Assembly: GCF_002761295.1 (NCBI RefSeq)
Contig: NZ_CP017881.1
Location: forward strand, 433,087 to 497,086
DNA: 64,000 bases
DNA from: Methanohalophilus portucalensis
GTDB lineage: Archaea; Halobacteriota; Methanosarcinia; Methanosarcinales; Methanosarcinaceae
Reading direction: 5' to 3'
The notes beneath the pieces were generated by a model. It saw nothing but the letters and a program-made list of their open reading frames with translations. It did not search any database and was not told where the DNA came from. The number at the start of each line of letters is the position of its first letter. Within the stretch, counting starts at the first letter, position 1. Shown one piece after another: positions 35,428-49,699 of the stretch. The translations under genes were made by a program, and so were the position numbers.

Positions 35428-36669
35428 ATGAAAATCAGCAGACCAAGAGGAACAAGAGATTTCCTTCCTGAGAATACGCGATTGAGACGTTTTGTTGAAA
35501 ACAGGATGAGAGACGTAGTTTCCAGATGGGGATACAGCGAAATAATCACACCTACTTTTGAAAATCTCGAACTATTCACCCTCAAATCCGGAGAAGGGGT
35601 TACAGGGGAGATCTACAATTTTTCTGATAAGGGTGACAGGGAGCTTGCCCTGCGTCCGGAACTCACCGCACCTGTCATGCGTATGTATGTGAACGAAATG
35701 CAGGCAACCCCCCGTCCGCTAAAACTTTTCTATTTCGAGAATTGCTTCCGTTATGAGAGGCCCCAAAAGGGACGTTTCAGGGAATTCTGGCAATTTGGAG
35801 TTGAGACTATTGGCAGCAGCCGTCCTGACGCTGATGCCGAAGTAATAGCTCTTGCCGAAGAAATGATCGAATCTGTAGGTATCAAAGGAGACTTGCATGT
35901 AGGGCACCTGGGGATCATTCGTCATATACTTGAAGAACTCGAACCGGAGCAACAGACAAAAATCATGAGGCTTGTGGATAAAAAGGACGATACCGGCCTG
36001 GATGATTATCTTGAACAAATCAATGCATCAATAGAGCTTCGCAATGAGCTGTTTGAACTTGTAAGTATCACTGGAGATGATGCAATAGAAAAAGCAAGGC
36101 AAATTGTGGGGGATATTGAAGAACTCCAAATTTTTGAAGAACTGACACAAATCCTGGATGCCTATAATGTGGAATATTCCGTGGACTTTGGTATTGCCAG
36201 GGGTCTTGATTATTACACAGGCATGGTTTTTGAGATATATGCCAGCAATCTCGGTGCCCAGAACCAGATATGTGGAGGTGGCTCCTACCAGTTGATACAG
36301 CTTTTTGGTGGAGGGGATGTTCCTTCAACTGGATTTGGACTCGGGTTTGATCGTATAATGGAGATATGTGAACTTGAACCTGAGCAAAAAAAGGAAGTTG
36401 TGCTTGTGGCAACAGATGACACCCGGCTGGATGCAATAGGGATTGCGCGCGAATTACGTCGGAAGGTGCCTGTATATCTCGATATAATGAAACGAAACTT
36501 CAAGGGCCAGCTGTCTCACGCCAATAACATCGGTGCCAGGTATGTGGTGATAGTGGGAAAAAGGGAAATGGAGGCTGGCAAGGTTACCCTGAAGGATATG
36601 GAATCCGGTGAACAGCACCAGTTGACCGTTGAAGAGGCCAGAGAACATATTCTCAAAAGCGGAATGTAA
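35428..36669 (+). CDS. hisS: Histidyl-tRNA synthetase
   Basis: 413 residues, class II. Motif 1 is near [16 protein letters not shown] and motif 2 is [22 protein letters not shown]. The histidine loop is [13 protein letters not shown] near residue 255, and motif 3 is [13 protein letters not shown]-terminal anticodon-binding domain follows. It is full length and stands alone. Confidence 0.95.
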
Positions 36670-36985: not shown

Positions 36986-38659
36986 ATGGCACAATTCGAA
37001 GAAAAGGCAGAATTAGAAAAGGTTATCAACAAGAGTCCTGCCATAGTATTTCTCTGTAAAACTGAACAGGATTGGCCTGTGGAATTTGTATCAGATAATG
37101 TTGTAAAGTTAGGCTACACCGTAGAAGATTTTGAGTCAGGTTCGGTAAAATATGCTGATATTGTACATCCACAGGACCTAAATTATGTCCGCTCTGAGGT
37201 CTTGAGGAATTCAGAAGAGGGAAATACAGAATATACCTAGGAATATAGAGTACTAACAAAATCTGGATATGTTCGATGGGTAGATGACAGGACATTTATC
37301 CGGCGTGATAATAGCAACAAGATTACGCATTACCAGGGAATCATACTTGATATTACAAAACGCAAAGAAGCAGAAGAAAATCTGTATCTTGACGAATCAC
37401 GGCTTGAAGCCCTTTTGAAACTAAATCAAATGACTGGTTCATCATTACAGGAAATTACGGATTTTGCCCATGAAGAGGCAGTCAAATTAACTAAAAGCAA
37501 GTTGGGGTATCTTGCCTTTATGAGTCCAGATGAAGGATCCCTTATCATGCATTCGTGGTCAACTCATGCAATGAAAGAATGTAATGTAAAAGACAGAAAA
37601 TTCATATATCCTATCGAGACCACCGGGCTTTGGGGAGAAGCTGTAAAGCAGAGAAAACCAATAATAACCAACAATTATCAGGAGGCAAATCCTCTTAAAA
37701 AAGGGTATCCAGAGGGACACGTGAAGTTGACAAGACACATGAATGTTCCAATATTTGATGGGAATCGGATTGTGGCTGTTGCGGGGGTAGGCAATAAAGA
37801 AGAAGATTATGATGAAGCAGACCTGAGACAATTGATTCTACTCATGCAGGAAATGTGGAGACTAATCCGACGTAAGCAAATGGAAGATGCTCTTCAGAAA
37901 AGTTCAACTGAACTTTCAAAAGCAGAAATGGAACTCAAATCTTTTGATAGAGTAAAAGCCGAATTCCTGTCAAACAAGGAAGAGACTCAACCTGCAACTG
38001 AACACGGAAAAATGATCGATGATGAAACCCTTGAGATTATTAATGACCTTGAAAAAAAAGCCATTGAAAATGTAATACATCATTCTCAAAGATTAAGGCG
38101 TATAGTAGATTCTTTCATTTACACGAGTATGGAAGAAGCGGGCAAGATAGAATATAATTTTAAACCAATTGATATTTCTGTTCCACTGGAAAATTCCCTT
38201 GTAGACACCATTTTCATGGTAGAAGAAAAAGAAATAGTATTGGAAAAAACAATACCAAAATCTCTTCCTTTAATTAATGGGGATGAAGAAAAACTGACTG
38301 ATATGTTTACAGTTTTGATGGATAGTGCTATCCGCTTTACTCCTTATAAAGGAAAAGTGGCCATAATTGTTGATGAAGAAGTGAATTATATTCATATTAT
38401 ACTGAAAGATAATGGGGCCGGTATTCCAGAAAAACTAATTCCCCATATGTTCCAGCGTTTTTATGAGATTGATTCCCAAACAAAAAACAATTCAGAAGGT
38501 ATAGAATCCGGTTTTTATATATGCAAAAAAATAGCTGATGCCCATAAAGGCAGCATAAAGATTGAGAGCAAAATAAATGTGGGGACAGAAGTTCACATCT
38601 GGATTCCAAAAATCGATTTCTCCTCAAAAAAACAATTGGGTGAAGAATATGAAATCTGA
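36986..38659 (+). CDS. PAS-GAF sensor kinase, MsmS-like, with in-frame UAG codon 85
   Basis: 557 residues if UAG 37238-37240 is read as an amino acid. Domains: PAS (about 10-130), GAF (about 150-300) with a single Cys199, degenerate DHp (about 330-390) and HATPase (about 420-550). The frame resumes after UAG with EYRVLTKSGYVRWVDDRTF. The paralogue at 19910 has Gln (CAG) at the UAG position. The DHp segment has FLSNKEETQ where SHELRTPL would be, so the phospho-acceptor His is absent. The G2 box reads SGFYICKK instead of GTGLGLY. Architecture and neighbours (regulator, fused methyltransferase) resemble MsmS of Methanosarcina, a heme-redox sensor; a heme on Cys199 is speculation. A decayed gene is the alternative. 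Confidence 0.75.
37238..37240 (+). other. In-frame UAG in the sensor kinase gene
   Basis: UAG stands between NTEYT and EYRVLTKSG, both inside the PAS domain. The homologous sequence at 21314-21316 reads CAG. No frame change is needed to continue. Candidate pyrrolysine or suppressed amber codon. Confidence 0.7.
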
Positions 38660-39440
38660 GTTATTAGGAACCCTCTTTCTATCAGAAAAAAGAAAAGATC
38701 TCCTTCTTTTGCTGGTAAAAAAACCCAGGGATATTGATGAGATAAAAGATATACTTGATGTGAATTCAAGTGCAATAATGACCCAAATCAAGATACTTTT
38801 AAGTCATGGTTTAATCATTCATGACGATGATGTATATAAATTATCAGGCATGGGAAGAGTAATAGTAAAAAAGATGCAACCACTGCTGGATGTATTATCA
38901 GTATATACGGATAATAAAAATTATTGGGAAAACCACAATCTCAATGCGATCCCGTCTTGCCTTTTAGAAAGAATTGAAGAAATGGGAAACTGTGAATTGT
39001 TCGAACCTGACCTTAATAGGATGTATGAGTTACCAGAAAAAATGGTAGAATATCTTTATCAATCGACTTATGTACACGAAGTTTCTTCATATTTTAGTCC
39101 AGCATACCCAAAAATCTATATTGAACTCGCAAAAAAAGGTATTGACGTTTCAGTAATAATAACAAAACCAGTATTTGAAAGACTTCAATCTGAATATCAG
39201 GAAGAAACAAAAGAATTTGTGAATTTGGAGTGTGGAAATCTTTTTGTTTTTGGAGACAAGATCGAAATCGCATCAAGTACTGTAACGGATAAATTCACAG
39301 CAATCTCACTCTTTTATAATACCGGAATATACCACAACCATGTAATCATGAGTTTTGATAATAGTGCTTTGAAATGGGGAGAAGATTTATTTAGATATTA
39401 TCTTAGTAATTCAACTCCAATCACAGACAAAGACATATAA
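38649..39440 (+). CDS. Transcriptional regulator, winged HTH plus DUF1724, Msr-like
   Basis: 263 residues from ATG 38649 (MKSELLGTLFLSEKRKDLLLLL). The winged helix occupies about 10-80 and the DUF1724 domain the rest, ending SALKWGEDLFRYYLSN. It starts inside the last codons of the sensor kinase gene, so the two are coupled. In Methanosarcina acetivorans, Msr-family regulators lie beside and control the mtsD, mtsF and mtsH methyltransferase genes. Here a fused methyltransferase gene follows after a 418-nt gap, so it is the likely target. The longer reading from 38577 is not supported. Confidence 0.85.
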   Translation: MKSELLGTLFLSEKRKDLLLLLVKKPRDIDEIKDILDVNSSAIMTQIKILLSHGLIIHDDDVYKLSGMGRVIVKKMQPLLDVLSVYTDNKNYWENHNLNAIPSCLLERIEEMGNCELFEPDLNRMYELPEKMVEYLYQSTYVHEVSSYFSPAYPKIYIELAKKGIDVSVIITKPVFERLQSEYQEETKEFVNLECGNLFVFGDKIEIASSTVTDKFTAISLFYNTGIYHNHVIMSFDNSALKWGEDLFRYYLSNSTPITDKDI

Positions 39441-39858
39441 ACTATCAGATTGTCATAAATCACCCCCACACATACTTTATTTGTAGATTAAATGTTCTAT
39501 TTCTTACTATTTAGGAATATGATTTACAATCAGGGTCAATATAGACTCAATGTTATCAGAGGCTTTGATTTGATTAAGGGTTTTGATATTCAGATAAGCA
39601 GTATTTCATGGTAACGCCGTTAACACAGTGATACTTCCGTTATAGGTTAACGCCGTTAACTAAACAGCTCATTCTCTTATAATTGGTGTGTATAATATAA
39701 TAATAGGTCTCTACTGATATCATTTTTGTAAATCTGATTTCACAGGTTATGTTATATGTTTCTGATCCCCATCTTTATCTGTGCAAATTGAGAAATGGAC
39801 ATAATTTGTCCACCATCTCAAAAACTACACAGCAACATAATGCTGGAGGAAACATTAG
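39441..39858. other. Regulatory region upstream of the fused methyltransferase gene
   Basis: 418 nt without an ORF. Besides the paired 13-bp element at 39612-39660 it holds a TATA-like stretch near 39685-39700 and a GGAGG 9 nt before the ATG at 39859. This implies a long leader of about 130 nt. Confidence 0.6.
39612..39660. promoter_or_regulatory. Paired operator-like elements TAACGCCGTTAAC
   Basis: The 13-bp word TAACGCCGTTAAC occurs at 39612-39624 and 39648-39660, 36 bp apart. Each contains the dyad TAACG-C-CGTTA. The second copy is extended to GTTAACGCCGTTAAC. Two equal dyads just upstream of a TATA-like stretch look like binding sites for the adjacent regulator. Confidence 0.6.
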
Positions 39859-41763
39859 ATGGCGCAAGACATATTAAAAGAATTAGCGGAAGCTGTGGTT
39901 TCTGGAAACAAAGACTTAACAGCAGAATTGTCCGAAAAGGCGTTAAAAGAAGGATTGGACCCACACGAAGCTATTATTGATGGATTAGCCAAAGGAATGG
40001 TAATTGTTAGCGACAACTATGAGAAAGGAACAGCTTTCGTTCCACATCTGTTGATCGCTTCGCAGGCAATGTATGCTGGAATGGATGTGCTAACACCCCA
40101 CATTGAAACAGAAGAATCATCCAAACCCGCAACTATGGTAATTGGTACTGTAGAAGGCGATGTGCATGACATTGGTAAAAATCTCGTCAAAACAATGATG
40201 TCAGCAGGAGGAATTGATACTATAGACCTTGGACATGATGTTCCTCTGGACAAATTCATTGAAACAGCAAGAGAAAATCAGGCCGATGTCATCTCTATGA
40301 GTGCACTGATGACAACTACAATGTCCGGAATGGAAAAAGTCATCGAAATGCTTCAGGAAGAAGGTCTCAGAGATTCCCTTATTGTAATGGTAGGAGGAGC
40401 ACCCGTATCTGAAGAATTTGCCGAGAATATTGGTGCAGATAAAACAGCACCTGATGCTTTGCATGCTTCAAACTGGGCAATAGATGCCGTAAGTAAACTT
40501 TCACCTTCAAAGGAAAGGTGGAGTGATGAAAAAATCAACCTTGCTAAGGTGAAATACAGGGAAATTCTGGCAAAGAAACAGGTCAAATCGAAGAAAGATA
40601 TTGGGCTTGAAACTGCAAAGAATATCATGGCAGAATTCGAAAGTGTTGGTGTCAAGACTAAAGAAAAAATGAGTCACGCTGACAGGACTCTTGCTGCTAT
40701 GGCTGACAAGAAAGTCGACCGCCTTCCCGTATATCCACTTGCATGTGGTGCTCTGAGAAAATTTGCAAATGCAACTTACAAGGAGTATGCAATAGATCCT
40801 CATAAGTTTGCAGAAAGTGCACTCCTTGGTTCTAAATACTTGGATCTTGACATGTTTGTAGGCTTGATAGACCTTTCAGCTACCTCGGCTGACTTTGGAT
40901 GTACCATAAAATATCCTGAAGAAGATACACCTTCATCAGAAGGACACCTTGAGGACTATGAAAGTATTGAAACACCGGAAGTCAAGGAAGGTACACGTGC
41001 CTATGAACTAATTGAAGCTTCAAAACTTGCCAAAGATAAGTTGAACAAGGAACTTGGCACCCCATTTGTTGGGTTCCATGAAGGTCCTCTTCTGACGTTG
41101 ACACAACTAATGGGTGCAGATCGTGTGCTTATGGACATGAAAACCAACCCCGATGTTGTTCTTGAGGCACTTCAGAAATGTACTGACTATGTATCCCAGG
41201 TTTCAGAGGCCTTCTTTGAAGAAGATGCATGTGATGCCCTTTGTGTTGACAACCTGTGGTCAAATAATATAATTATGGATGAAGAGGACTATTGGAAATT
41301 TGATGGGAAGTTTGTATACGACCAACAAATTCCAGTTTTCAAGAAGTATGATCAACCATACATCATCCACAATTGTGCTGATGCTGTTCATTACGAAACT
41401 CAGATCAAGAAATTCGGAACAGCTCTATACAGCTATGCATACTATGAAAATGGGAGGGATAAAGGCTCACAAAACTATGCAGACCTTATTCCAAAGTATG
41501 GTGACATTTGCTGTATGATGGGAGAAATTGATCCTATTGATATGATGGACAATTCCCCCGAAGGTATACAGAAAATTGAAAACGATACAGAAGAGCTACT
41601 GAAAGGTGTTCATGAAACCCTGAAGGAGAATGGTATGCAGTCTAAGTATGTCATGTCTACTGGATGTGAGGTACCTCCAGGAGGCCCATTGACAGGTGTC
41701 AAGGCAATGGTGGACAAAGTCAAGGAACTTGGTCCACAGTTTCAGAAAGACATAATAGGGTGA
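39859..41763 (+). CDS. Corrinoid protein-methyltransferase fusion, MtsD/F/H-like
   Basis: 634 residues. Residues 1-210 are a B12-binding corrinoid protein: helical cap, then GDVHDIGKNLV with cobalt ligand His103, and MVGGAP near 177. Residues 270-634 are a UroD/MtaA-type methyltransferase barrel with zinc ligands His504-x-Cys506 (HNC) and Cys603 (STGC). Such fusions in Methanosarcina transfer methyl groups between methylthiols or dimethyl sulfide and CoM. Substrate here is not proven. GGAGG lies 9 nt before the start. A hairpin terminator overlaps the stop codon, so the downstream genes may have their own promoter or depend on readthrough. Confidence 0.88.
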   Translation: MAQDILKELAEAVVSGNKDLTAELSEKALKEGLDPHEAIIDGLAKGMVIVSDNYEKGTAFVPHLLIASQAMYAGMDVLTPHIETEESSKPATMVIGTVEGDVHDIGKNLVKTMMSAGGIDTIDLGHDVPLDKFIETARENQADVISMSALMTTTMSGMEKVIEMLQEEGLRDSLIVMVGGAPVSEEFAENIGADKTAPDALHASNWAIDAVSKLSPSKERWSDEKINLAKVKYREILAKKQVKSKKDIGLETAKNIMAEFESVGVKTKEKMSHADRTLAAMADKKVDRLPVYPLACGALRKFANATYKEYAIDPHKFAESALLGSKYLDLDMFVGLIDLSATSADFGCTIKYPEEDTPSSEGHLEDYESIETPEVKEGTRAYELIEASKLAKDKLNKELGTPFVGFHEGPLLTLTQLMGADRVLMDMKTNPDVVLEALQKCTDYVSQVSEAFFEEDACDALCVDNLWSNNIIMDEEDYWKFDGKFVYDQQIPVFKKYDQPYIIHNCADAVHYETQIKKFGTALYSYAYYENGRDKGSQNYADLIPKYGDICCMMGEIDPIDMMDNSPEGIQKIENDTEELLKGVHETLKENGMQSKYVMSTGCEVPPGGPLTGVKAMVDKVKELGPQFQKDIIG

Positions 41764-41782
41764 TATCAAACCCTATTTTTTT
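41754..41782 (+). terminator. Hairpin terminator after the fusion gene
   Basis: AATAGGG (41754-41760) and CCCTATT (41771-41777) are a perfect 7-bp stem, followed by a 7-nt T tract. It includes the stop codon TGA at 41761. Confidence 0.7.
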
Positions 41783-41844
41783 AGAGACGATCAATTCGCG
41801 CAAATTATACGTTCAAATTAAATTATAACACAGGAGGTTATAAG

Positions 41845-43773
41845 ATGTACCTTGGACTTGGAATTGACACAGGAGGAACATATACTGATTCTATTATAAT
41901 GGACATATCATCCGGGAATGTAATGGATGCTTGCAAATCATTAACAACACACTCCAATCTAATACAGGGAATAGAGAATTCGATTGAAGGTCTCAATGCT
42001 AGTTATCTGGAAAATATAGAATTTGTATCCGTTTCAACCACTCTTGCAACCAATACTACGCTTGAAGAAAATGGGCACCCTGCTGCACTTATTCTTATCG
42101 GCCATTCAATTAACGGACCCCTTTCAACCGATCAAATCCTATCCATAAAAGGTGGCCATGATGCTGATGGCAATGTTGCAGAAAATCTTGATGATCCTGA
42201 ATTGATTGAAAATTTTGTAATGCAAAATAAAGATAAAGTCTCCTCTTTTGCAGTGTCCTCTTATTTTGGAGTAAGGAATCCTGAACATGAGATGACAGTA
42301 AAAGGTATTATTGGAAAACTGACTGATAAACCAGTTGTATGTGGACATGAACTTTCAATGAATCTTGGAGCTTATGAAAGAGCTGTCACAGCATTGTTAA
42401 ATGCACAATTAATCCCGGTAACTGATCAATTTATAAGATCTATTCTTTCAGTAATGGAAAAGAAGGGAATTGATGCAGATCTAATGATGATGAAATGTGA
42501 TGGTTCCCTTGTAAGAATAGAAGATGCACTGAAAAAACCCGTTGAGTCGATATTTTCAGGACCTGCAGCTAGCCTTGTTGGTGCGTCTCATCTTTCAAAT
42601 CTTAAGACCTGCCTGACTATGGATGTTGGTGGCACAAGCACTGATGTGTCAATGATATCCAATGGGATTCCCGAGATAAGTGAAAGTGGTGCTAAAGTTG
42701 GGGGATGGAGCACAATGGTAAAAGCCATAAAGATGGATACGTCTGCTCTTGGCGGTGACAGTCATGTATGGGTTCAGACGCGTACAACAATAGGATCGAA
42801 TAGGGTCATACCTCTCTGTCTTGCAGCATATAATCATCCTGCATTGATAGAAATACTTGGCAATGTCGATAAACCTAACGTACGCCTTATGGATAATATC
42901 ATACAGCCTACAACCTTCTTTATAAAAAGTGATTTGAATAAATATGAATCAGATAACTTTAAATTGGACTCTAATGAGAAACGAATCCTTGATGTGTTGG
43001 ATTCTGAACCTCTCTCCCTGTATGAGATATCGAATAAATTAGATGAACATATTTTGATGTTTTCCAGTCATCTTGAATCTCTTGTCAAGAAAAAATATGT
43101 CCAGCAGATTGGTTTTACTCCTACAGATGCCCTTCACGTTTTGAGGGATTATACCGGATATAATACAGAGGCATCAGATATCGGAGCTCAGCTACTAGGT
43201 GAATACGTGGGTATGAATAAAGATAGTTTTTGCTCACAAATAAAAGCACAAGTAGTAAAGAATATGTCAATGAATATAGTGTCTTATTTAGTAGAGGATA
43301 TTAAAAAAACAGACATAGAAAAGATGATTGAGTCTTCATCTTCTTTGAATTTCAAAGTAAACCAACCCATAGTTCTTGTTGGAGGACCTGTAAAAGCATA
43401 TCAGGAAGATATTTGCAAAATACTCAATGCTGACATAAGGGTTCCTAAGTATCATGAAGTTGGAAATGCAGTTGGTGCACTTCTCGGGGATGTTATCTAC
43501 AGAACTGAATCCATTGTAAGGATAGACAGTACTGGATCCAAACAATATGTTGTTTTTTCAGAAAATGGAAGAAATATTTTTGATGAGTACGAAGAATCTG
43601 TAAATTTTGCTCTTGATATAAGTAAAAAACTTGTAGAAGGATATATGGCAGGATATGGTCTGGATATGTCTAAAATAAATTTAGATGTAGCCAGAAATGA
43701 CATGAAAAACGGATATGGTGCGAAGCTTGAAACTAAAATTGTGGCAACAGGAATTGGAAATCCAAGGAGATAA
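41845..43773 (+). CDS. HyuA-like (hydantoinase/oxoprolinase family) ATPase with winged-helix insert
   Basis: 642 residues of the actin/Hsp70/sugar-kinase ATPase fold. GIDTGGTYTDSII at the start and TMDVGGTSTDVSMI near residue 258 are the two phosphate loops. An insert at about 374-434 looks like a winged helix (EKRILDVL ... YVQQIGFTPTDAL). Family members hydrolyse hydantoins or act as ATP-driven subunits. Here it lies between a corrinoid methyltransferase and a chaperonin, so a role in maturing or reactivating the corrinoid protein is an inference. GGAGG is 7 nt upstream. The stop is 5 nt before the chaperonin start. Confidence 0.78.
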   Translation: MYLGLGIDTGGTYTDSIIMDISSGNVMDACKSLTTHSNLIQGIENSIEGLNASYLENIEFVSVSTTLATNTTLEENGHPAALILIGHSINGPLSTDQILSIKGGHDADGNVAENLDDPELIENFVMQNKDKVSSFAVSSYFGVRNPEHEMTVKGIIGKLTDKPVVCGHELSMNLGAYERAVTALLNAQLIPVTDQFIRSILSVMEKKGIDADLMMMKCDGSLVRIEDALKKPVESIFSGPAASLVGASHLSNLKTCLTMDVGGTSTDVSMISNGIPEISESGAKVGGWSTMVKAIKMDTSALGGDSHVWVQTRTTIGSNRVIPLCLAAYNHPALIEILGNVDKPNVRLMDNIIQPTTFFIKSDLNKYESDNFKLDSNEKRILDVLDSEPLSLYEISNKLDEHILMFSSHLESLVKKKYVQQIGFTPTDALHVLRDYTGYNTEASDIGAQLLGEYVGMNKDSFCSQIKAQVVKNMSMNIVSYLVEDIKKTDIEKMIESSSSLNFKVNQPIVLVGGPVKAYQEDICKILNADIRVPKYHEVGNAVGALLGDVIYRTESIVRIDSTGSKQYVVFSENGRNIFDEYEESVNFALDISKKLVEGYMAGYGLDMSKINLDVARNDMKNGYGAKLETKIVATGIGNPRR

Positions 43774-43778
43774 TTTTG

Positions 43779-45389
43779 ATGAACTCAGCTGTAAATAATA
43801 TCGGTCAACAACAGAACAATGCAGACGACATGTATCAACTTATGCAGAATGCTTACAAAAAAATCGGTCTGAAAAGTGATGTAGAGGACAAAGAACTTAT
43901 CGATCATCTTGAAAGGGCATCGGTTGAGGTAAAAGAATTGTTGAGTACTTCATTTGGCCCCTGGGGCCTAAATAAATTAATTACAAATCATGTTGGTGAC
44001 GTGTATTTAACCAACGATGGAAAAACCATAATTAAAGAGATGGATGTATTGCATCCTATAGTTACTTCTTTGAATGATCTTTCAAAATCAATGGATAGAT
44101 CATGTGGTGACGGTACAAAAACCGCAGTTATACTGGCATCTGGTCTTATCGTAAATGCAATTAAACTTATAAAAATAGGTGTGCACCCTACCACCATCAT
44201 AAAGGGCTATAAGCTTGCTCTTAATAAGGCATATGAACTTATCGAATTCAACAGTATAACTGCCAAATCATACGATGAGACCTACGCCGCAATCCTCAGT
44301 GCATCATTTGCCAAGGGTATAGAACTTGATCAAGCAAAGAAACTTTCAACTATGGTTGTTGATGTGATCGAACATTTAACAACAATATCCTCGGATGGTT
44401 ATCTAGATCTCGAGGAAAATATAAAAATAATGAAGAAAGTTGGTGGGCCTGACATATTACATCTTAATGGTGTTATTCTTGATGAAACACCCGCAAGATT
44501 TGATATGCCAGAATCAGTCTCCGATCCAAATATTCTCATTTTAAACTATGATTTGAAAGTTAAAAGTGAATTTATAAATTCAAAACGTAACATCAGTATG
44601 GATGGCATTGAAACTGCTCATATGTTCAATGAAGAGAATAAAAAAATACTTGATGGCTTTGCTGATAAAATAATAAATTGTAACGCTAATGTTGTGTTTT
44701 GTGAAGGTGATGTGGACCCCCGAATAGAAGCACGCCTTGTGGAAAATAACATATTAATGTTCAAGAAACTTAAAAATAAAGACCTGGAGAATATTTCAAA
44801 GGCAACTGGTACCCAAATCATGTCCATAAAGGACAATCTGGAACCTAATCATCTTGGAAAAGCAAATGGTGTTGAAGTTACAAAGAAATGTGGTGAACAT
44901 TTTGCTTTCATAAATGTCGAAAATCAAATGATTTCGACGATCTTGATATGGGAACCTTTCAACTATGCTCTTGAAAAGGTAGAAGAAGCTGCAGACGATG
45001 CATTGAACACTGCAGCATTTATCCTCAGGAATAAGAAATTAGTAACCGGAGGAGGCGGAGTCGAATTTGTAGTTTCTCAGATGCTAAAGAACTATGCAAC
45101 TACAATAGAAGGAAAGGAGCAGCTTGCGGTTATCGAGTATGCTAATGCACTTGAAGAAATTCCCAGAATACTGGCAAGTAATGAAGGAATGAATGTTATA
45201 GATTCAATGGCAAAAATGTCAAATTTTTATAAAAAAGGATTGAATCCAAGAATTGATACTTCCAGATTTGTCACAGAGAATAATCCTTTAGTCTATGATT
45301 CAGCTAGCATAAAGAAATTAGCGGTCATTTCTGCCACTGAAACTGCAACCAGTGTGCTGAGAATTGATAAAATATTGTTGAAGAAATGA
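43779..45389 (+). CDS. Divergent group II chaperonin (Hsp60/thermosome-like)
   Basis: 536 residues, the usual length. Recognisable are GPWGLNKLI near residue 61, NDGKTIIKEMDVLHP, GDGTKTAVILASG (Asp111; thermosomes have GDGTTT) and GGGGVEFVV near 427. ATPase residues seem kept, but the rest is strongly diverged from the housekeeping thermosome subunits. A dedicated, non-canonical Hsp60 in a methyltransferase operon suggests folding of a specific client. Non-canonical extra Hsp60 proteins are known in Methanosarcina acetivorans. Start ATG 43779 (or TTG 43776) follows AAGGAG. Confidence 0.8.
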   Translation: MNSAVNNIGQQQNNADDMYQLMQNAYKKIGLKSDVEDKELIDHLERASVEVKELLSTSFGPWGLNKLITNHVGDVYLTNDGKTIIKEMDVLHPIVTSLNDLSKSMDRSCGDGTKTAVILASGLIVNAIKLIKIGVHPTTIIKGYKLALNKAYELIEFNSITAKSYDETYAAILSASFAKGIELDQAKKLSTMVVDVIEHLTTISSDGYLDLEENIKIMKKVGGPDILHLNGVILDETPARFDMPESVSDPNILILNYDLKVKSEFINSKRNISMDGIETAHMFNEENKKILDGFADKIINCNANVVFCEGDVDPRIEARLVENNILMFKKLKNKDLENISKATGTQIMSIKDNLEPNHLGKANGVEVTKKCGEHFAFINVENQMISTILIWEPFNYALEKVEEAADDALNTAAFILRNKKLVTGGGGVEFVVSQMLKNYATTIEGKEQLAVIEYANALEEIPRILASNEGMNVIDSMAKMSNFYKKGLNPRIDTSRFVTENNPLVYDSASIKKLAVISATETATSVLRIDKILLKK

Positions 45390-45507
45390 CACGATATAAG
45401 TTATGATAACATGGTAAATTATGGATTAATATAATTTTGCACAAATACAATAATCATGGCAAAGCTAAGTGGTAAATTGGAAACAATTCTAAAAGTGAGG
45501 ATTCATT

Positions 45508-46569
45508 ATGAGTGGTTTAAACTTTAAAGAAAGGTTGTTGAATACTTTAAAAGGCAAACCTGTGGATAGAGTTCCTGTGATATCCATAACACAAACAGGC
45601 ATTATTGAACTAATGGATGCAACAGGTGCTTCATGGCCAGAAGCACATAGTGATCCTGAGAAGATGGCAGAATTAGCCTTTGCAGCTTACGACCTCACAA
45701 GATTAGAAGCTGTGAGATATCCATATTGCTCAACAGTTCTTGCTGAAGCAATGGGTTGTAAAGTTAACCTCGGTTCAAAATGTATTCAACCTTATGTAAT
45801 ATCTCATCCTTTTTCAGAAGACACTGATAATATACAGTTTCCAAAGAATCTTCTTGAAAAAGCGAGAATTCCTGCTGTTTTAAAAGCTACAGATTTATTG
45901 AAGGAAAAGGTGGGTGAAAATGTGCCTATAATAGCAGGAATTGAAGGGCCATTAACCCTTTTTTCCCATCTTACGGGTGTGGACAGTTACATGAAATGGT
46001 CCACACTAAACCCTGAATATGCTACACAATGTTTGAACATTGCCACAAGTGCATGTATTGAGTATTCGAATGAACTAATCAAACATGGAGCTGATGTTAT
46101 TTGTGTTTCAGAAGGTATTGTTTGTCCTGATTTATCATATCCAAAAATATTCGAATCTGTTGTAAAACCGGAATATCATAGATTTTGTGAAAACACAACA
46201 GGTATAAAAATCATATATATTTGTGAAAATTCAAACCCAATGTTAGAATCTTTGGCAGAATGCGGATTTGAAGGTATAAGTATTGAAGAAAAAGTCAAAG
46301 AATTCCAGGCTACTAAAAAAATGATTGGCGAAAAATCCTGTCTTATTGGGAATGTTTCAACTTCTCTGACAATGTAGAATGGAAGTTATGACCAGGTGAA
46401 AAGGGAGGCGAAAAAATGTCTGGCAGGTGAAATCGGTGTACTTTCTCCAGGAAGTGGAATTAATCCTAAAACTCCTTTTGAGAATGTAAAGGCACTTGTT
46501 CGAGCAAGAGATGAGTACTATGCCAAAAAATCCCATCAAAAATATAGACAAACAACCCAATTACAATAA
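45508..46569 (+). CDS. MtaA/UroD-type methyltransferase homologue with in-frame UAG and lost zinc ligands
   Basis: 353 residues if UAG 46375-46377 (codon 290) is read. The sequence resumes after it with NGSYDQVKREAKKCLAGEI and ends DEYYAKKSHQ, as MtaA homologues do, so the frame is conserved to TAA 46569. MtaA and MtbA move methyl from corrinoid to CoM using zinc held by His-x-Cys and a late Cys. Here the positions read Tyr237-Ile-Cys239 and Ser316 (PGSG instead of PGCG). So two of three ligands are gone. It may have changed function, may be a structural partner, or may be decaying. AAGTGAGG precedes the ATG. Confidence 0.75.
46375..46377 (+). other. In-frame UAG in the MtaA homologue
   Basis: UAG stands between STSLTM and NGSYDQVKREAKKC. 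Homologues have a hydrophobic residue near here (TLLPG-like). The following 63 sense codons align with the family's C-terminus without a frame change. Confidence 0.7.
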
Positions 46570-46637
46570 TTTGTGGCCATTAATAATAGCAGTTTTTTAT
46601 GAAATTCTATTGCTCTATTTGTGAGGAGGAAGATCAG

Positions 46638-46952
46638 ATGACAGAATTAAGCGTAAGATCAAATGTCTGTGATTTTACCCATAAGGTATGTGGAAAGATA
46701 GATGGTGATAAGATCATCATCGATATAGACACGCCCTGTGAAAAGGTCAAGAAGATGTCCCATCTGGAAGTTCCTATGATGGACCTGTTCGATATAAAGG
46801 ACAACTGTGTAATACAAAAAGCCCAGGAAGCAAAATGCAGTGTTACATGCCTTGTTCCCTGTGCTGTCCTCCATGTGTGCTGCCTGGAAGCAGGCATGCT
46901 GTCGAAATCTTTGGTCCAGAAGGCAGGGGATGTTCGTATAGAGTTTGAATGA
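46638..46952 (+). CDS. Cys-rich small protein of the methyltransferase island
   Basis: 104 residues from ATG 46638, with GAGGAGG 8 nt upstream; the upstream ATG 46599 has no such site. Nine to ten cysteines: VCDF, VCGK, PCEK, DNCV, KCSVTCLVPCAVLHVCC. It resembles a family often seen beside UroD-type methyltransferases, perhaps DUF6951, but I am not sure of the name. The cysteines could bind zinc or an Fe-S cluster. It stands between two methyltransferase homologues and precedes the second by 45 nt. Confidence 0.7.
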   Translation: MTELSVRSNVCDFTHKVCGKIDGDKIIIDIDTPCEKVKKMSHLEVPMMDLFDIKDNCVIQKAQEAKCSVTCLVPCAVLHVCCLEAGMLSKSLVQKAGDVRIEFE

Positions 46953-46997
46953 TCTTTGGAATAGGGAATTAATACGAATAATCCGGGGAGTAATATA

Positions 46998-48095
46998 TTG
47001 TCAGAAGAAATGACGTCCAGAGAGCGGTTTGTTAATGCTCTTGAGATGAAGGATGTGGATAGGATGCCTTATGGGTATCTGTGGTTCGGGGCAGGCAACG
47101 GTGTCCTGGAGCGCATGAACGCCAGCATGAGTGATGTCTACTATTCTGCAGAGGGGATCGCCAGGGCACAGATACTTGCAAGACAGATGTATCATCATGA
47201 CAATGTTATGTCTCCCTGGGGGTGTTTGCTAGTTGAAGCAGAAGCACTAGGCACCCGGCTGAACATCAAGGATAATAGGTATCCCACGATAGCCGGGTAT
47301 CCATTAAGTTCTGCTAATGAATATGATCAGATTGATCCACTGGACATTGAAAGGTCCCACAGGATAGATACTGTTGTAAATTCTATAGGGATCCTCAAAA
47401 AGGAGCTCAAGGATGAGGTCTTCATCACAGGGGCCATGCTTTCCCCTTTGATGCTTGCTTCTCAGGTACTTGAGGCCAGCAGTCTTTGCATAGAAATGCT
47501 CTCTGAAAAAGAGAAGGTTCATGAGTTACTTGAAAGACTAACACAAAGCTGTATCCTTTATGCTGACCGGCTTATTGAAGAAGGGGTTGACGGCATCTTC
47601 GTTGAGAACGGGGAGAACACGGCAGACCTTTTCAGTCCTGATATGGCTGAGGAATTCATGCTCCCTTATACAAAACAGCTCTATGCACACATCCAGGATA
47701 ATGGCATTTATGTAATCTCCCATAACTGTGCTGAACATGCCTTCCACGAGATGGAAGCATCTTTAAGACCAGATGCCCTGAACTTCGCTTTCGGGGATGT
47801 TAACACTCTGGGCAAGAAGTATGGTATCGAATGTACTAAGATCCATAAGAAGGCCGGATGCAGTCCAAGATATTGCTTTAAGGAACTTGAAGAACACGGT
47901 ATCTGCCTTATGGGTAACATCAATCCCAATGTTTTCTGCAGGGATTCTTTAGATGATATTGAGCACGAGGTAAAAAGTTGTATGTACTGTGCTCCAGAAA
48001 AGGGTTTTATTCTCTCGACAGGTTGTGAGATCCCTCTTAGCACATCGATCGAGGAAATGGAAACCCTCTGGAGATCAATAAGTTCTCGCTTTTAA
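46998..48095 (+). CDS. UroD/MtaA-type methyltransferase
   Basis: 365 residues. The barrel has complete zinc ligands: His242-x-Cys244 (SHNC) and Cys343 (STGCEIP), the same pattern as the fused protein's C-terminal half. TSRERFVNALEMKDVDRMPYG at the N-terminus is typical of the family. It would take or give methyl groups from a corrinoid protein; substrate unknown. TTG 46998 has GGGGAG 7 nt upstream; ATG 47010 is the alternative. Its zinc site is intact while that of its neighbour at 45508 is not. Confidence 0.82.
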   Translation: MSEEMTSRERFVNALEMKDVDRMPYGYLWFGAGNGVLERMNASMSDVYYSAEGIARAQILARQMYHHDNVMSPWGCLLVEAEALGTRLNIKDNRYPTIAGYPLSSANEYDQIDPLDIERSHRIDTVVNSIGILKKELKDEVFITGAMLSPLMLASQVLEASSLCIEMLSEKEKVHELLERLTQSCILYADRLIEEGVDGIFVENGENTADLFSPDMAEEFMLPYTKQLYAHIQDNGIYVISHNCAEHAFHEMEASLRPDALNFAFGDVNTLGKKYGIECTKIHKKAGCSPRYCFKELEEHGICLMGNINPNVFCRDSLDDIEHEVKSCMYCAPEKGFILSTGCEIPLSTSIEEMETLWRSISSRF

Positions 48096-48167
48096 TGTTA
48101 TTTATTTTATAGTCAATTTGTCAATCACATTAAGTAAGACGAGAATCCCAATCCAAAAAGTGATTGC

Positions 48168-48848
48168 ATGGAACCAAAAGAAGTTTATCCAGATGAAAGG
48201 CTATTGAATAAGCAAAAATATCACTGGGAAAATGTATTTTTAAATTACAGTTCTAAATTCGGCTATGAACCAAGCGAATCTGCTAAAAGAGCAGTCAATT
48301 TTTTTAATAATAGAGGACTTACAAAAATACTCGAACTTGGAGCCGGTCAGGGCAGAGATTCCCTTTATTTTGCAAAAAAAGGGTTGGAGGTTTTTTCTGT
48401 TGACTATTCTAAACAAGGACTTAAGTGTATTTAGCAAGAGGCACTGAAAACTAATCTGTCTGGAAGAATAAATCTTTTGCAACATGATGTTAGGTATCCT
48501 CTGCCATTTGAAGATTCATCCTTCGATGCATGTTATTCACATATGCTCTATTGCATGCCAATTAGGTTTTCTGAATTGGCTGCAATGTCTAAAGAAATCA
48601 GAAGAGTTCTTAAACCCAGTGGATTGAATATATACACTGCAAGGCATGTAGGTGACCCGCAATATAAAACAGGAATCCACAGGCTTGAAGATATGTGGGA
48701 GATAAAAGGAGGATTCATCGTTCATTTCCTGAACAGAGAAAAGATTGGTTATCTTTCAGAAGGATATAAGATCATTGACATAAAGGAATTTGAAGAAGGT
48801 CAACTTCCCAAAAAGATGTATATGGTATCCCTTGAGAAAGAGAGGTAA
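48168..48848 (+). CDS. SAM-dependent methyltransferase with in-frame UAG codon 89
   Basis: 226 residues if UAG 48432-48434 is read. ILELGAGQGRDSLYFAKKGL near residue 58 is the SAM loop and SVDYS the acidic residue on strand 2. After UAG the same frame continues with QEALKTNLSGRINLLQHDV and PLPFEDSSFDACYSHML, motifs II and III of class I methyltransferases. UAG replaces a position that is usually Lys or polar in the helix after strand 2. A truncated 88-residue product would lack half of the fold. Its substrate is unknown. It is the last gene of the island. Confidence 0.78.
48432..48434 (+). other. In-frame UAG in the SAM methyltransferase gene
   Basis: UAG stands between KQGLKCI and QEALKTNLSG in an amphipathic helix. 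AAG or CAG would give UAG by one substitution. Confidence 0.7.
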
Positions 48849-49240: not shown

Positions 49241-49699
49241 ATGGCAAAAATGCACACTCGCAGAAAAGGCCAGGCAGGGTCCACAAAACCCATTCGTACA
49301 GAAGTACCCGCATGGTCTTTGCAGGATGCAGAAGAGATCGAAAAGGTGGTTCTTGACTTGTGGAAGCAAGGCAACCCCACCAGTGTCATCGGAATGAAGT
49401 TGAGAGATAATTATGGAGTTCCTGATGTCAAACTCGCTACAGGAAAGAAGCTCACTGCAATCCTGAAAGAAAATGAAGTAGCACCTGGTGTTCCTGAAGA
49501 CCTGTACAATCTTATCGTAAAAGCTATTGGCCTGAGAAAACATGTTGCAGCCAATAACAAAGATGTACATAACAAACGTCCTCTTCAGCTTACTGAATCC
49601 AAAATTCGCAGACTGGTTAAATATTATAAGGCAAACAAAGTCCTTCCAGCCGAATGGAAATACAAACCAGAAACCGCAGAAATGCTTATTACTAAGTAA
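49241..49699 (+). CDS. rps15: 30S ribosomal protein uS15 (archaeal)
   Basis: 152 residues of the archaeal/eukaryotic S15 form. [14 protein letters not shown] at the start, an N-terminal extension of about 60 residues, and the core helices ending [14 protein letters not shown]. Binds 16S rRNA in the small subunit. GGAG lies 8 nt before ATG. Confidence 0.97.

Follow-up and report, generated by a model that had tools for sequence, protein, structure and literature searches.

The 64,000-nucleotide stretch of Methanohalophilus portucalensis analysed here (the window; NZ_CP017881.1, positions 433,087 to 497,086) carries a methyltransferase island with three core members: a corrinoid protein/methyltransferase fusion, a HyuA-like ATPase, and a divergent group II chaperonin. 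Chaperonins are regarded as generalists. Because the lineage of this chaperonin is nearly always found beside the fusion gene and is absent from the sampled relatives that have no fusion, it is a candidate single-client chaperonin. The best explanation, to which we assign a probability of roughly 0.6, is a client-dedicated chaperonin that, with the accessory ATPase, would serve in making or maintaining the fusion.

The source genome is complete (2.08 Mb). The island lies between hisS (35428-36669) and rps15 (49241-49699), both of which stand outside it, as an earlier note on this sequence had stated, and all island genes are on the plus strand. Profile matches confirmed the genes named in that note, their order, and their strand; some gene ends were corrected. 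A sensor kinase and a regulator, conserved with the rest of the island, are also members. The features of the first part are:

36986..38659 (+): PAS-GAF sensor kinase, read through an in-frame TAG at codon 85; a syntenic kinase is present in relatives.
38649..39440 (+): Msr/FilR1-type transcriptional regulator (PF08350 FilR1_middle, 1.6e-38), conserved in position.
39555..39569 (no strand): candidate operator, palindrome ATCAGAGGCTTTGAT, which recurs upstream of the fusion.
39610..39660 (no strand): candidate operator, two GTTAACGCCGTTAAC-like palindrome copies, which recur upstream of the fusion.
39859..41763 (+): MtsD-like corrinoid/methyltransferase fusion (B12-binding_2 + B12-binding + URO-D).
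41845..43773 (+): HyuA-like ASKHA (acetate and sugar kinase/Hsc70/actin) ATPase with a winged-helix-like insert (PF05378, PF01968; structure model and Foldseek; own clade).
43779..45389 (+; ATG at 43779, TTG at 43776): divergent group II chaperonin (PF00118, 7.3e-118; clade and motif).

The fusion, about 630 aa long, consists of an N-terminal B12 cap (PF02607), a B12 domain (PF02310), and a UroD-type methyltransferase domain (PF01208), in that order. The corrinoid motif DVHDIG is found at residue 101, and the zinc motif at 504 (HNC) and 602 (GC). One sampled genome, G061, we take to be Methanosarcina acetivorans C2A. The order mtsF ... mtaCB2 ... hydantoinase given in PMC11619418 agrees with this. 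The window fusion is 74% identical to the fusion of the MtsD locus and 56% identical to that of the MtsF locus of this genome. It has the two-part architecture of M. acetivorans MtsD, MtsF, and MtsH, with full-length homology (PMC7374477, PMC10762971); the activity of MtsF/CmtA has been reported (PMC7374477). The fusion is MtsD-like, and methyl transfer from methylthiol or dimethylsulfide to coenzyme M is predicted. The M. acetivorans Mts loci likewise have an Msr-type regulator and a sensor kinase alongside the fusion. The linked ATPase and chaperonin are not described in these two papers.

Loci around the ATPase were collected from relatives and compared with the window proteins. The kinase, regulator, fusion, ATPase, and chaperonin occur in the same order and on the same strand in the closest relative of the window and in eight other genera of Methanosarcinaceae (nine with that of the window), Methanolobus (five loci, named records) among them. 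Because most of these loci had been fetched through the ATPase, an unbiased count was taken from a search with the fusion. In the family sample, the ATPase is directly downstream, by coordinates, of 25 of the 27 MtsD-like fusions (at least 60% identical to that of the window). One exception is the MtsH-like fusion of G011, with two same-clade ATPases 6-10 kb upstream; the other is a second copy in G024, the downstream side of which was not read. Every D-type locus with at least 4 kb of downstream sequence also carries the chaperonin. F-type fusions (about 55% identical to that of the window) have a chaperonin near them as well, upstream in G071 and G081. The earlier note had described the standard methylsulfide locus as a fusion, a regulator, and sometimes a sensor. 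This is wrong, as the ATPase and the chaperonin are standard in the MtsD-type locus.

Co-occurrence was then counted. Among the 61 genomes of the family sample, the chaperonin was detected in 25 (E ≤ 1e-100) and the fusion in 27 (E ≤ 1e-90). All 25 chaperonin genomes have the fusion, and none of the 34 fusion-less genomes has the chaperonin; G021 and G040 have the fusion without the chaperonin, and there the contig stops at the chaperonin or short of it. Across 345 genomes of the phylum, the chaperonin (E ≤ 1e-90) was detected in 24, all of them among the 29 with a full-length fusion, compared with 0 of 316 fusion-less genomes. The five remaining fusion genomes are G021, G040, and G078, where contigs end, and G234 and G365, which belong to another family (f7). 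In these last two (loci L178 and L179), the fusion is followed after 9-13 bp by the start of a more distant chaperonin, with RamA encoded close by on the opposite strand. Fisher's test on the phylum counts gave 2e-32, for genomes that are related and not independent. The joint presence and absence of the two genes within single genera is a stronger point; in the genus of the window, 2 of 7 sampled genomes carry both. The neighbourhood of fusion, ATPase, and chaperonin that the earlier note had put forward is therefore conserved in relatives, and the chaperonin tracks the fusion across the phylum. That the genes lie apart in most relatives was tested and rejected. A dedicated chaperonin for the fusion is therefore the best-supported reading.

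The window chaperonin gave a full-length match to the Cpn60_TCP1 profile (7.3e-118). It shares the fold, the lid-helix region, which aligns, and the catalytic Asp residues with archaeal thermosomes and CCT, and among solved structures it is nearest to an ancestral group II chaperonin (9rwp) and to thermosomes. It differs from them in its low identity (about 30%; 30-33% to the three other thermosomes of the same genome), in the Lys of its GDGTK motif, in an extended N-terminus, in the missing GGM-type C-terminal tail, and in its tie to one client locus. The longer N-terminus and the lack of the tail are common to the linked chaperonins. The nucleotide motif is GDGTT in 14/14 conventional chaperonins, GDGTK in 40/40 linked chaperonins of Methanosarcinaceae, and GDGVK in 2/2 copies of the other family; a Cys precedes it in 41 of the 42 linked proteins.

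In the phylogenetic tree, the window chaperonin is not among the ordinary thermosome alpha, beta, and gamma subunits, and falls in a separate clade (100/100). The linked chaperonins of Methanosarcinaceae, present in ten genera, form one clade (100/99), whether or not the tree includes GroEL as outgroup. Those of G234 and G365 join the same clade (100/100), and all conventional thermosomes, including that family's own, are outside. Grouping the linked chaperonins of the other family with its own thermosomes was rejected (approximately unbiased test, p 5e-47; log-likelihood 95 lower). The linked chaperonins have a single origin, with long branches as a caveat on the tree. Three genomes have linked copies that share 95-99.6% identity, against only 54-55% between the adjoining fusions. 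This implies concerted evolution and a shared role, and fits one chaperonin serving both fusions.

The genome taken as M. acetivorans (G061) has five group II chaperonin genes, exactly two of which belong to the Mts-linked clade; both of these adjoin an Mts fusion. The passages of PMC6420498 that concern these proteins report five group II subunits only in M. acetivorans, cluster subunits 4 and 5 together and with human CCT6, and propose no client for the two, whereas the clade recovered here spans ten genera; PMC6420498 and PMC5220055 cite Maeder 2005 for subunits 4/5. The two Mts-linked copies are very probably the unexplained fourth and fifth group II chaperonins of M. acetivorans and, by gene order, should be MA0857 and MA4386. 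The pair thus offers an explanation for the five group II chaperonins of this species. MA4384-MA4394 rise together on HdrED depletion (PMC11619418); judging from the gene order, the F-linked chaperonin should be one of them. In G061, each of the two Mts-linked chaperonins is followed by a CobW-like GTPase (L177:12075-13178, L176:7529-8632); it is found in other islands, not in the window, and is a possible metal-delivery partner.

The ATPase has Hydant_A_N and Hydantoinase_A domains, and its fold matches HyuA-type ATPases (Foldseek, E 6e-26). In the AlphaFold model (predicted local distance difference test, pLDDT, 86.6), a compact helix-helix-helix-strand unit at about residues 370-423 lies between the two ASKHA halves. 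This supports the winged-helix-like insert described in the earlier note; Pfam winged-helix matches to it were weak. The mts-linked ATPases are a group of their own in the tree (Shimodaira-Hasegawa-like approximate likelihood ratio test 95). Most genomes of the family carry several paralogues, with up to 12 matches. Among the matches listed, 18 of 28 HyuA-like loci outside mts islands are within 10 kb of a corrinoid gene, against 2.0 expected (0/5000 shifts). Weak Pfam similarity was found between the ATPase and MutL/GlmL, and between one paralogue and EutA. This similarity hints at a role like that of the reactivases of B12 enzymes. One HyuA-like paralogue of the window's genome is directly before metV-metF (methylene-tetrahydrofolate reductase) and thiC (L021:8195-13062).

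RamA is a known Fe-S reductive activase of corrinoid proteins. RamA/RACE proteins (TIGR04270) are also ASKHA ATPases that serve corrinoid methyltransferases, and their genes are present in many mts islands, in several genera of Methanosarcinaceae and beside the fusion in G234 and G365. The window's island has no TIGR04270/RamA gene; the genome has RamA genes at 246827 and 953724. Unlike RamA, the window ATPase gave no match to TIGR04270 and has no C-terminal Fe-S domain. For these reasons, and since RamA coexists with it in islands, its assignment as a RamA-type reductive activase was rejected. Because RamA is in the same islands and the HyuA-like protein lacks the Fe-S domain, the role of the latter as the reactivation factor is uncertain; reductive activation is probably the task of RamA, and the HyuA-like protein would do something else. 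Of the methyl-transfer system with dedicated folding and reactivation factors proposed in the earlier note, the chaperonin part is favoured by the co-occurrence, but the ATPase as sole reactivation factor is not upheld, with RamA in the islands.

The island core would then be one functional unit, in which an MtsD-type fusion is accompanied by the factors that build and maintain it. The fusion as client is the simplest explanation for the distribution of the chaperonin. The apo-fusion should carry a helical cap, a B12 domain, and a TIM (triosephosphate isomerase) barrel on one chain, and the dedicated chaperonin, which probably forms its own ring, may fold, assemble, or hold this large protein until it has received its cobamide and zinc. 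For the HyuA-like ATPase, the most likely role is that of an ATP-driven accessory of the corrinoid domain, acting in cofactor loading or exchange by analogy with EutA, DdrA, and GlmL, the reactivases of other B12 enzymes. It would complement the Fe-S activase RamA, which is encoded in the same island in many relatives and here would be supplied from elsewhere in the genome.

Several observations weigh against this interpretation. There is no chaperonin near the MtsH-like fusion of G011, and F-type fusions have no ATPase close behind. In G068 and G076, the chaperonin next to one fusion is broken, and an intact copy is found elsewhere. Four of the six HyuA-like genes of the window's genome are not near corrinoid genes. 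The chaperonins of G234 and G365 lack the Asp of TNDG and that of the DAL motif, residues expected for hydrolysis. In addition, M. acetivorans MtsF/CmtA was reportedly made in Escherichia coli and reconstituted to activity, so that the chaperonin would not be absolutely needed.

For the ATPase alone, and compatible with a dedicated chaperonin, a metabolic function is conceivable, though we consider it doubtful: the protein would belong to the HyuA/oxoprolinase type of ATP-dependent amidases or kinases and have a methylated compound or a C1 cofactor as its substrate. By sequence and by fold, its closest solved relatives are N-methylhydantoinase, caprolactamase, and the acetone and acetophenone carboxylase subunits, and the adjacency of one paralogue to metV-metF would fit. 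However, a domain scan of the island's genes found no HyuB-type protein, the partner of HyuA. The family is also spread beside corrinoid genes over loci for different substrates, with up to 12 paralogues per genome in Methanosarcinaceae, and the window ATPase has the winged-helix-like insert in its HyuA core.

In our view, the chaperonin is unlikely to be a structural compartment or holdase, hydrolysing little or no ATP, in which the fusion would be enclosed or scaffolded, or its reactive cob(I)amide shielded, instead of a folding machine. In all linked chaperonins, Lys stands where the nucleotide motif has its conserved Thr. This would fit such a role, as would the absence of GGM-type tails and the loss in the other family (f7) of the Thr of GDGT together with the Asp of TNDG and of DAL. 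In contrast, 40/40 linked chaperonins of Methanosarcinaceae retain Asp in each of TNDG, GDGT, and DDAL; with the aligned lid-helix region, this fits an ATP-driven cycle.

A stress module, in which the chaperonin and the ATPase would be a general defence against the thiol, sulfide, or solvent stress that methanethiol and dimethylsulfide cause, and would accompany the pathway for no other reason, appears quite improbable. Both genes are found only where the methylsulfide pathway occurs, and a sensor kinase and an Msr-type regulator precede them. However, the chaperonin is immediately behind the fusion in the other family too and comes and goes with it, and stress does not explain the association of the ATPase family with corrinoid genes for other substrates. 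Chance neighbours, an accident of this lineage, for which no support was found, were rejected and have almost no probability left, given an order kept in eight other genera and a co-occurrence of 24/24 versus 0/316.

Beyond the dedicated chaperonin itself, a bolder proposal is speculative and rather unlikely to hold in full: a whole group II chaperonin lineage would have evolved for a single Mts client before the carrier families split. With its altered nucleotide site, it would be no general folding machine; it would hydrolyse ATP slowly or not at all and act as a cage for loading, shielding, or scaffolding the fusion. The HyuA-like paralogues, in turn, would maintain corrinoid proteins in methylotrophic methanogens at large, as a class so far unrecognised. 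Comparison of genomes links a deep lineage of chaperonins to a single metabolic enzyme, which is named as the candidate client. Dimethylsulfide methanogenesis gains a putative biogenesis set of chaperonin, HyuA-like ATPase, and RamA, which may matter for the expression of Mts enzymes in other hosts. The ATPase family is flagged as probable corrinoid-enzyme accessories. In the openly licensed literature, we found no earlier statement linking the chaperonin and mts genes; priority is thus uncertain.

Two palindromes upstream of the fusion are likely candidates for regulator sites. Of 31 loci, 21 have a site similar to that at 39555-39569 (ATCAGAGGCTTTGAT; ATCAAAGGCTTTGAT), with at most 2 mismatches, in the 450 bp preceding the fusion. 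The palindrome at 39610-39660 (GTTAACGCCGTTAAC-like; GTTAACGNCGTTAAC) has 3 matches in the window versus 0.01 expected, and is upstream of the fusion in 15/31 loci. Both recur at a similar distance from the mts fusion in many genomes; as they were found in the same data used for counting, the enrichment is descriptive.

The features downstream of the chaperonin are:

45508..46569 (+, full gene): MtaA homologue with an in-frame TAG at codon 290 and lost zinc ligands.
46638..46952 (+): Cys-rich DUF6951 protein (PF22263).
46998..48095 (+): second UroD/MtaA-superfamily methyltransferase, zinc motif HNC...GC intact.
48168..48848 (+, full gene): S-adenosylmethionine (SAM)-dependent methyltransferase, MduS-like, with an in-frame TAG at codon 89; a start at 48477 covers only the second part of the gene.

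Three genes, those of the kinase, MtaA, and the SAM methyltransferase, each contain a single TAG in frame. That of the kinase (37238..37240, +) is in the PAS domain. In the alignment, 13 further island loci from other genomes (the nearest relative and three other genera) also have TAG at this codon, and other PAS copies mostly have CAG there. The MtaA TAG is also present in the nearest relative. The window's genome has mttB- and mtbB-like genes, identified from their N-termini, with a single in-frame TAG. Because these genes carry the classic single TAG, the genome very probably decodes UAG as pyrrolysine. The island TAGs are probably pyrrolysine codons, and in the sensor kinase the residue is a candidate conserved pyrrolysine. 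With ARAGORN, neither the window nor five methylamine-type regions gave a tRNA, and tRNA-Pyl was not located there. Plain pseudogenes were rejected as an explanation, given the conservation of the kinase TAG in relatives, the MtaA TAG in the nearest relative, and the mttB/mtbB TAGs.

The MtaA copy passes the NCBIfam cut-off despite the loss of two of three zinc ligands (Y237 for His and S315 for Cys; YIC and GSG for HxC and GCG). Its ratio of nonsynonymous to synonymous substitution rates is 0.37, compared with about 0.1 for neighbours, and the homologue is probably decaying or repurposed. The earlier note had counted both MtaA/UroD homologues among the genes that could form the methyl-transfer system; this is not supported for the degenerate first, whereas the second keeps its zinc motif.

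The DUF6951 gene is present in many of the mts islands; its structure model is moderate (pLDDT 75), and a PDB search gave no match below E 0.7. The SAM methyltransferase, which resembles the selenoprotein MduS, is found among the sampled islands only in the window and in the nearest relative, whose copy (62% identity) has GAT at the position of codon 89. The second UroD protein has orthologues in Methanolobus and in other islands.

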